Assembly (NCBI GenBank): GCA_002255045.1
Contig: NJEE01000002.1
Coordinates: forward strand, 1-38,502
DNA length: 38,502 nt
Direction: 5' to 3'
Source of the DNA: Candidatus Bathyarchaeota archaeon ex4484_205
Lineage (GTDB): Archaea > Thermoproteota > EX4484-205
Below are positions 1 through 36,151 of this stretch, in pieces (within the stretch, counting starts at the first letter, position 1; every line of letters starts with the position of its first letter). Position numbers and translations under genes: made by a program. Under the pieces are notes generated by a model. It ran no database searches. It saw only the letters and a list, made by a program, of their open reading frames with translations, and was not told the origin of the DNA.

Positions 1-722
1 GAGGGAGTCATCTCCTTCCTTCTTTAGCTGATAGAAGGCTGCAGCCACCTCGTAGAGAGAGACAGAATCCTCCTCTGTCATAACACCATCTCGTGTACGC
101 CTAAGTTCAGCCATATGTGCGCCCACACCAGAGACAAGACCCCAATCATGTACTAGTTTACGTATGTAAGTACCAGATTCGCACCCCACCCTAAAAAGTA
201 AATGCCTCCCATCAAATTCTAGGAGCTGTAAATAGTAAATTATTCTTCTCCTAAGTCTCCTAGCTACAGAGGATCTTAAAGGAGGCTTTTGATAGATCTC
301 ACCTACGAACTCTCTGACAGTGTCTTCCAGCTTATCTAAGGAGAGCTCTCTATGAAACTCCGCTATACCTACATATTCTTTACCTAACATATGCAGAAAC
401 TCTATAACTTTCTTGGATTCGTAAAGACAGATGGGGAGTACACCAGTCACAGCGGGATTTCCCCAAGTACTTCTAAGGTCCCGCTGTGGCCGGCGTACTC
501 GATGCTGGCGAAACGTTTAACCCAGGATACTACATCATGACTGGTGGGTCCAGCAGGTTTATCCAGAACTATAATGCCGAAGCGGATATGCTCAGCGGGA
601 TCTCTTTCGTCGGGTTTTGAACCATATTTTGGATCAGTCTCGGCAGTTTCCCTCACTTTTACCTCCTTATGTCTTCTCCAGGGAGGAAGCATACCTGAGG
701 AGTATTTGATGTCTAACCTCAA
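1..722 (-). CDS. cbf5: Cbf5/TruB-family tRNA/rRNA pseudouridine synthase (H/ACA), 3' end outside window; two exons, 722..473 and 458..1, with a 14-nt intron at 459..472
   Basis: Exon 1 reads ...FGIIVLDKPAGPTSHDVVSWVKRFASIEYAGHSGTL; exon 2, in another frame, reads (D)PAVTGVLPICLYESKKVIEFLHMLGKEYVG...FRVGCESGTYIRKLVHDWG...VGAHMAELRRTRDG. TTG start at 722 with GGGAGGAG upstream. Follows eL14 as in many archaea. Confidence 0.9.
459..472 (-). other. Putative 14-nt BHB intron in cbf5 pre-mRNA (sense AAGUACUUGGGGAA)
   Basis: Excision gives GGC CAC AGC GGG ACC UUA G|AU CCC GCU GUG ACU = GHSGTLDPAVT. Outer 10-bp helix CACAGCGGGA:UCCCGCUGUG, 3-nt bulge AG^A, 4-bp helix CCUU:GGGG, 3-nt bulge AA^A, loop AGUACUU. 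Confidence 0.85.
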
Positions 723-29004: not shown

Positions 29005-29095
29005 TGGTGGGCGCGGCAGGATTCGAACCTGCGACCTTCCGCGCTTCCTTTCGTTAAGTCAGGCGGACGTCCTAACCCAACTGGACGACGCGCCC
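29005..29095 (-). tRNA. tRNA-Val(GAC) with encoded CCA and a ~13-nt insertion in the anticodon loop (putative intron ~29045..29057)
   Basis: Acceptor GGGCGCG/CGCGCCC+A+CCA; D-arm GTCC-AGTTGGGTTA-GGAC; anticodon stem TCCGC/GCGGA around CTGAC[TTAACGAAAGGAA]GC; T-arm GCAGG-TTCGAAT-CCTGC. Confidence 0.85.
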
Positions 29096-33272: not shown

Positions 33273-34733
33273 TTATCCTTTTGCCACTCCGATAGGAGTC
33301 AATCGGACGACTTTCTTGGAGAGGCCGGCATTATGTGCTGCTTCTACAACTTCATCTGCACTCTTATAAGCACCAGGAGCCTCCTCTGCTATAACTCTCA
33401 TGCTGGCAGCCATAACTAAAATACCACGTTTCTCCAGATCACTCCTCACCTGACTACCCCAATATTTCCTTGTTGCCGCTTTGCGACTCATATATCTCCC
33501 AGCACCATGAGCAGTGCTCCCAAAACTGAGCTCCATTGCCCTCTCAGTACCTACAAGTACCCAGCTTGAGGTACCCATACTTCCCGGTATTAATACTGGT
33601 TGTCCAACATCTCTATAGTCAGGAGGAATGAGAGGATGGCCGGGTGGAAACGCGCGTGTCGCACCCTTTCTATGAACTACAACAGTTTTACGACTTCCAT
33701 CAACTTTATGTTCTTCAACTTTTGCAATATTGTGACATACATCGTATAGTAGATTCAAGCCAAGTTCCTCATCACGTTTTCCGAACACTTCTCGGAAGCT
33801 TTCCCTAACCCAATGCGTAATAAGCTGTCGGTTCAAGAAGGCATAGTTTACTGCACATTTCATTGCCTTAAAATATTCCTCACCTTCTTTACTCTTGAAA
33901 GGTACGCATGCTAGCTCGCGGTCGGGTGGATGGATTCCATGTCTGTGCATTGCCTTTTCCATTATTCTCACATAATCACTTGCAATTTGATGCCCAAAAC
34001 CTCGGCTTCCAGTATGGATCAAAACAACAATTTGACCTACATGAGTGATTCCAAATTTCTTTGCTATGGATTCATCAAATATTTGATTCACAACATCAAT
34101 CTCCAAAAAGTGGTTTCCGCTTCCCAATGTACCTAGTTGAGGGGCACCTCTCTGTTTAGCTCTATCACTCACAAAAGAGGGGTCAGCATCCTCCATTCTT
34201 CCTTCTTCTTCAATATGCTTAGCATCCTCAGGACGGCCGTATCCACGATCTATTGCCCATTCAACACCTTCTACAACGGCACGCTCAAGCTCATTAATAC
34301 TCAATCTGAGTTTCCCCCTTGAACCTACTCCGCTCGGAACATTTCTAAAGAGGGATTCAAGGAGTCTAGACAGTAAAGGACGGACATCTTTCTCTTCTAG
34401 TGTCGTGGTTAGAAGACGGACTCCACAGTTTATGTCATAACCCACGCCACCGGAGGATATTATACCTCCCTCTTCAATATCGAATGCTGCAACACCACCT
34501 ATACAGAAGCCGTAACCTTCGTGAGCATCACCAAGGGCGATGCTAAATTTTCTTATGCCAGGCAAAGTGGCTACGTTAGTAATTTGTTCCAAGGTTCTAT
34601 CTGTCCTCATCTTATCAAGTAGTTTTCTGGAGGCGTAGATCCTTGTAGGGACACGCATGCCTCTTTTATAGCTTTGAGGAATTTCCCATATGTAAGGAGT
34701 TATCTGATTGATTCGACCTGTGAAAGGACTCAT
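33273..34733 (-). CDS. rtcB: tRNA-splicing ligase RtcB, intein-free
   Basis: AFDIEEGGIISSGGVGYDINCGVRLL, QLGTLGSGNHFLEID, HTGSRGFGHQIA, VVVHRKGATRAFPPGHP, PVLIPGSMGTSSWVLVGT, SFGSTAHGAGR. Confidence 0.97.
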   Translation of the reverse strand: MSPFTGRINQITPYIWEIPQSYKRGMRVPTRIYASRKLLDKMRTDRTLEQITNVATLPGIRKFSIALGDAHEGYGFCIGGVAAFDIEEGGIISSGGVGYDINCGVRLLTTTLEEKDVRPLLSRLLESLFRNVPSGVGSRGKLRLSINELERAVVEGVEWAIDRGYGRPEDAKHIEEEGRMEDADPSFVSDRAKQRGAPQLGTLGSGNHFLEIDVVNQIFDESIAKKFGITHVGQIVVLIHTGSRGFGHQIASDYVRIMEKAMHRHGIHPPDRELACVPFKSKEGEEYFKAMKCAVNYAFLNRQLITHWVRESFREVFGKRDEELGLNLLYDVCHNIAKVEEHKVDGSRKTVVVHRKGATRAFPPGHPLIPPDYRDVGQPVLIPGSMGTSSWVLVGTERAMELSFGSTAHGAGRYMSRKAATRKYWGSQVRSDLEKRGILVMAASMRVIAEEAPGAYKSADEVVEAAHNAGLSKKVVRLTPIGVAKG

Positions 34734-35543: not shown

Positions 35544-35650
35544 TGGCGCCGGGGGTGGGATTTGAACCCACGTGGCCACAAAGGGCCACGGGCTCTCAAG
35601 GCCCGCGCCATGGACCACAGATATGTGTATCCGGACTTGGCTACCCCGGC
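35544..35650 (-). tRNA. tRNA-Ser(UGA), class II, encoded CCA, with a ~17-nt D-loop insertion (putative intron ~35612..35628)
   Basis: Acceptor GCCGGGG/CCCCGGC+G73+CCA; anticodon arm CGGGC-CTTGAGA-GCCCG; variable arm TGGCC-CTTTGT-GGCCA; T-arm GTGGG-TTCAAAT-CCCAC; 29-nt D-loop. Confidence 0.88.
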
Positions 35651-35728: not shown

Positions 35729-36151
35729 ATGAGATACAGATTTCTTGAGCATACATCCGATGCCTATGTAGAAGCTGAAGGAGATACTTTGGAGGAGGCT
35801 TTCGTAGAGGCAGCGAGGGGTATGTTTGATGTAATAACGGATCCTTCCACCATTGAAATATGTGTAAAAAGGGATATTACAGTAGAGGCAGAAGATCTGG
35901 AGAGCTTACTTTATTCCTGGTTGGAGGAACTGCTCTTACTATTTGATATTGAAGGCCTTGTAATAAATGATTTTAGTATAATAATTGAAAAAAGAAGTGG
36001 AGGATATATACTTCAAGGAGAAGTAAGAGGAGAACCCTTCAATCCCTCCAAACACCCTCCTGAGACTGATGTGAAAGCAGTGACATATCATGGAATGAGC
36101 ATAAAGAAAACTAACAACAAATATGTAGTTAGAGTGCTTTTTGATATCTGA
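35729..36151 (+). CDS. Archease (RtcB-activating protein)
   Basis: YRFLEHTSDAYVEAEGDTLEEAFVEAARGMFDVITD...ESLLYSWLEELLLLFD...KHPPETDVKAVTYHGMSI. Confidence 0.94.
   Translation: MRYRFLEHTSDAYVEAEGDTLEEAFVEAARGMFDVITDPSTIEICVKRDITVEAEDLESLLYSWLEELLLLFDIEGLVINDFSIIIEKRSGGYILQGEVRGEPFNPSKHPPETDVKAVTYHGMSIKKTNNKYVVRVLFDI

Follow-up and report, generated by a model that had tools for sequence, protein, structure and literature searches.

The cbf5 locus

The window analysed here is a 38,502-nt stretch of contig NJEE01000002.1 from Candidatus Bathyarchaeota archaeon ex4484_205 (positions 1 to 38,502). On the minus strand it carries cbf5, which codes for an essential enzyme of RNA modification in this uncultured archaeon. 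The reading frame of the gene is lost just after GHSGTL in the ORF translation and goes on, in the unspliced reading, as EVLGEIPL followed by a stop codon. Excision of positions 459-472, AAGTACTTGGGGAA, gives GHSGTL-D-PAVTGVLP, with the catalytic Asp codon divided as G|AT, and the interruption therefore lies between bases 1 and 2 of that codon. The preliminary description of this DNA, which proposed an intron of the EndA type, had located the frame break after GHSGTL and restored the Asp codon (G|AU) by removing 459..472, and both statements were confirmed by translation. The enzyme cannot be encoded by the unspliced message, which stops after EVLGEIPL.

Exon 1 (473..692, minus strand) starts at a likely ATG at 692, was delimited by ORF and translation, has DKCLD and TruB_N domains of the spliced product as evidence and ends with the G that opens the catalytic Asp codon. 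The 14-nt intron, AAGUACUUGGGGAA, occupies 459..472 (minus strand), and 68 other distinct loci are interrupted at the same site. Exon 2 (1..458, minus strand) begins with the AU of the Asp codon, leaves the contig and resumes on contig C28, which shares 63 identical nt with the cbf5 end of the window and in which the C-terminal part of the gene is intact. DKCLD, TruB_N and TruB_C domains were all recovered from the spliced product by domain search. An intact cbf5 elsewhere, which would have spoken against an intron, was looked for across the assembled genome: no second cbf5 was found in the bin (1.28 Mb, 111 contigs, about 90% complete with 6.9% contamination, cbf5 spread over two contigs), and the only cbf5 pieces belong to this locus.

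Predicted RNA structure at the intron

The exons flanking the intron form an outer helix in which the 5' strand, CACAGCGGGA (479..488, minus strand), and the 3' strand, UCCCGCUGUG (448..457, minus strand), are joined by 10/10 Watson-Crick pairs. A central helix follows, in which the exon strand CCUU (475..478, minus strand) pairs with the intron strand GGGG (461..464, minus strand) by two G-C and two U-G pairs; this helix covaries over 69 loci. The 5' splice site AG^A (472..474, minus strand) would be cut between 473 and 472, and the 3' splice site AA^A (458..460, minus strand) between 459 and 458. The 5' triplet is AG^A in 53/69 loci, and the 3' triplet is AA^A in 36/69 and AG^A in 14/69. The perfect 10-bp helix, the CCUU:GGGG core and both cut triplets had been read correctly in the preliminary description.

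The predicted folding energy of minus-strand RNA 446-491 is -23.7 kcal/mol, compared with -11.5 kcal/mol in shuffled sequences (z -4.4, reached by 0/200 shuffles). In the minimum-energy fold the 10-bp exon helix comes first, then three nt (AAA) that bulge out on the 3' side, and then a central helix lengthened to six pairs, CCUUAG:UUGGGG, and closed by a 6-nt loop, which leaves neither an inner helix nor a true 5' bulge. The earlier claim that both cuts fall in 3-nt bulges thus stands for the 3' site, whereas in the fold the 5' cut lies where the helix meets the loop. A strict bulge-helix-bulge (BHB), with two 3-nt bulges and helices on both sides, is not formed, since the inner helix is absent; the exon-intron central helix and the triplets cut after their second nucleotide are present, the 5' triplet lying outside a true bulge. 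As predicted by folding, the structure is a relaxed bulge-helix-loop form and not a strict BHB.

Motifs of this shape also arise by chance at this stringency, since shuffles of one strand yielded about 7 with 8/8 outer pairs and about 0.6 with 10/10, and significance from the motif alone was not claimed. The weight rests for this reason on the position in the catalytic codon at the frame break, on covariation and on recurrence.

The same site in other archaea

A search that covered 60 relatives and named GTDB genomes yielded 69 distinct archaeal cbf5 loci interrupted at the identical position, after the first base of the Asp codon (G|AY), with insertions of 13-76 nt that fall in all three length phases (26, 24 and 19 loci). 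The central helix, defined as four pairs, is complete in 65/69 of these loci and incomplete in four relatives. Over the 69 loci, central-helix pairing reaches 0.978 in register, and sliding the strands lowers it to 0.71 or less. When introns were shuffled among genes, 261.1 pairs were obtained (sd 0.97; maximum 265 in 5000 shuffles) against the 270 observed, and two-sided changes from C-G to U-A were seen at the second and third pairs. Two loci (L023 and L210) have 36-nt introns in a differing register, with GGUUAA ahead of the 3' cut, which suggests a shifted splice structure.

The exons differ as well between genes with and without the intron. The Thr preceding the site has the codon ACC or ACT in 69/69 intron-bearing genes but in only 17/45 intron-less ones, where ACA or ACG is used in 28/45, and Leu is encoded by CTA in 52/69 versus 3/45. 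Mean pairing over the first seven outer positions is 0.65 with the intron and 0.39 without it. An in-frame stop is present in 19/19 insertions of 3n length.

Recurrence at one site, covariation, codon bias and the stops in 3n insertions together rule out an assembly error and leave little room for recoding. For a gene that comes from a single MAG, is spread over two contigs and lies near a contig end, one might suspect that the 14 nt result from faulty assembly or sequencing or mark a decayed pseudogene; in this order, however, an insertion of 13-14 nt occupies the identical codon position in nine independent genomes, the remainder of cbf5 is intact, and covariation and codon bias extend across loci, so that we give this explanation very little credence. 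Translational recoding, in which the ribosome would bypass the 14 nt or shift frame at a strong RNA structure, would account for the strong stem at the frame break, but it fits poorly with insertions at a single point that range from 13 to 76 nt and occupy every phase, with cut sites that match the EndA consensus and with conserved pairing between intron and exon. The homologous introns of Aeropyrum and Sulfolobus are, moreover, spliced (PMC2738675), and recoding is considered highly improbable here.

Splicing enzymes and tRNA introns in the bin

The EndA alpha subunit (L108, contig C76) has the Tyr, His and Lys residues and, at the K44-R46 position, the KPK of the crenarchaea-specific loop, and the His is missing from the beta subunit (L110, contig C60) and likewise from its orthologues in 12 relatives. 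The best matches of the alpha subunit are Aeropyrum-type structures, 3p1z and 3ajv. At the gene level, the host enzyme is thus a heteromeric EndA with the loop lysine, as expected for broad specificity. A looped alpha subunit was also found in intron-less lineages, so that it permits a cbf5 intron but does not predict one. A third EndA-like gene (L109, contig C95) was set aside as probable contamination, its tetranucleotide composition being atypical and the gene being the best match of no relative's fetched EndA.

The window itself encodes an RtcB RNA ligase (33273..34733, minus strand; Pfam RtcB, E 2.2e-175), the predicted exon joiner, and the RtcB cofactor archease (35729..36151, plus strand; Pfam Archease, E 4e-48). 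It is scarcely conceivable that EndA cuts here without religation and that the site serves to down-regulate cbf5, as an expression-affecting EndA site in a 5' UTR of Haloferax (PMC7714728) might suggest, because the sole cbf5 copy is interrupted at its catalytic residue and the RtcB and archease genes lie inside the window.

According to ARAGORN the bin also has several tRNA introns, 11-16 nt in length, which is consistent with EndA acting on very short introns; tRNA introns are known down to 11 nt (PMC2738675). Within the window, a tRNA at 29005-29095 (minus strand) has an intron of about 13 nt in the anticodon arm and is Phe(GAA) according to ARAGORN with introns allowed, Val(GAC) being also possible from the acceptor arm. 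A tRNA-Ser at 35547-35650 (minus strand; anticodon UGA by reading), found by Rfam and missed by ARAGORN, has a D loop enlarged by about 16 nt, which are likely a non-canonical intron.

Distribution and age of the cbf5 intron

In the order to which the window belongs, the intron is 13-14 nt long in the genomes where the site was read, and these genomes group as a single clade in the Cbf5 tree (SH-aLRT 96), near the Caldarchaeales and Bathyarchaeota rows. The preliminary description had called the intron unusually short. At 14 nt it is indeed below the 16 nt of the shortest intron tabulated in PMC2738675, yet such a length is usual within its order. On the Cbf5 tree, introns no longer than 16 nt occur at about four places.

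By protein search in a sample of the phylum, cbf5 is interrupted in 92/196 Thermoproteota genomes with a match (75 split and 17 in frame but stop-containing), and 31/41 Thermoproteota families hold at least one such genome; these phylum counts derive from the match pattern, the exact site being confirmed for the fetched loci only. Yokobori 2009 listed cbf5 introns in Desulfurococcales and Sulfolobales only, with 16-44 nt at the same codon position, and inferred an intron gain in the ancestor of the two orders (PMC2738675). Named carriers beyond these orders include five Bathyarchaeota and two Calditenuaceae records, and the distribution is much wider than the published one. A full-text search of partial coverage returned no later publication that extends the range of cbf5 introns, and an earlier report is possible.

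Bathyarchaeota are mixed (L034, L036 and L037 versus L063-L065, L067 and L068), some having the intron and others lacking it, and offer a natural case of loss (or gain). The bin of one relative, G003, holds two cbf5 genes with different introns, of 36 nt (L009, contig C32) and 13 nt (L078, contig C10); the former groups with another family and is probably a contaminant of the bin.

At least nine changes of presence are required by the Cbf5 tree, which does not by itself separate gain from loss; the identical position and phase would favour one old origin.

Short introns and the exon helix

In introns of 16 nt or less the inner helix never exceeds 2 pairs, whereas most introns of 17 nt or more have at least 3. 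Loci without an inner helix have on average 8.4/10 outer pairs and an outer duplex of -15.2 kcal/mol, against 6.3/10 and -9.7 kcal/mol in the others. At least 8/10 outer pairs are formed in 14/15 short-intron genes but only in 16/57 long-intron ones, and Lys after Asp-Pro is found in 0/15 short-intron genes and in 33/57 of those with longer introns. These sequence comparisons suggest that the coding sequence may take over a structural role in the short-intron genes. With only 3-4 independent contrasts, the trade-off between a short intron and a strong helix is inseparable from shared ancestry, which accounts equally well for the pattern on present data.

The chances seem about even that the cbf5 intron predates the Desulfurococcales-Sulfolobales ancestor, possibly dating back to the TACK radiation, and has repeatedly been lost, and that at 13-16 nt, with the inner helix gone, the positioning of EndA would be taken over by an 8-10-bp helix in the codons around the catalytic Asp, which would limit the choice of codons and even of the amino acid that follows Asp-Pro.

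Discussion

On the evidence of independent relatives, covariation and enzyme genes, the 14 nt are almost certainly a relaxed-BHB intron of cbf5 mRNA, cut by EndA and joined by RtcB, and the proposal of an EndA-type intron finds support in all three. The transcript would fold its own exons round the catalytic Asp codon, with a 10-bp helix, a 3-nt bulge on the 3' side and then a 4-6-bp helix closed by the intron. An (alpha-beta)2 EndA, whose alpha subunit carries the crenarchaea-specific loop, would cut at AG^A and AA^A, and RtcB, probably with archease, would ligate the exons to give the GAU Asp codon and full-length Cbf5. We infer EndA cleavage, exon ligation and the need of splicing for active Cbf5 from these comparisons.

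The intron resembles the cbf5 intron of Desulfurococcales and Sulfolobales (Watanabe 2002; Yokobori 2009, PMC2738675) in the gene, the Asp position, the BHB-like structure and the crenarchaeal-type EndA, but it differs in its length (14 nt against 16-44), in having no inner helix and in a host outside both orders. Relaxed BHB forms are known substrates of EndA with the crenarchaea-specific loop (PMC6379350, PMC12397907). With the relaxed tRNA introns (hBH, HBh' and bulge-helix-loop) cut by (alpha-beta)2 EndA (PMC6379350, PMC12397907), the cbf5 structure shares one 3-nt bulge, a helix and a loop, although here the RNA is an mRNA and the flanking helix is coding sequence. In Haloferax, the 5' UTR of HVO_1309 has a BHB site (PMC7714728) that is likewise an EndA substrate in an mRNA, as is predicted for cbf5, but that site lies in an untranslated region of an unrelated gene in a euryarchaeal host.

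Cbf5 is the classic spliced archaeal mRNA, and its intron had been described from only two crenarchaeal orders. In many MAGs, automated gene calling will make cbf5 look broken. The intron in the window shows how small a cbf5 intron can get, and such introns provide natural minimal substrates of EndA. One identical position over much of Thermoproteota reopens the question of the age of the cbf5 intron.
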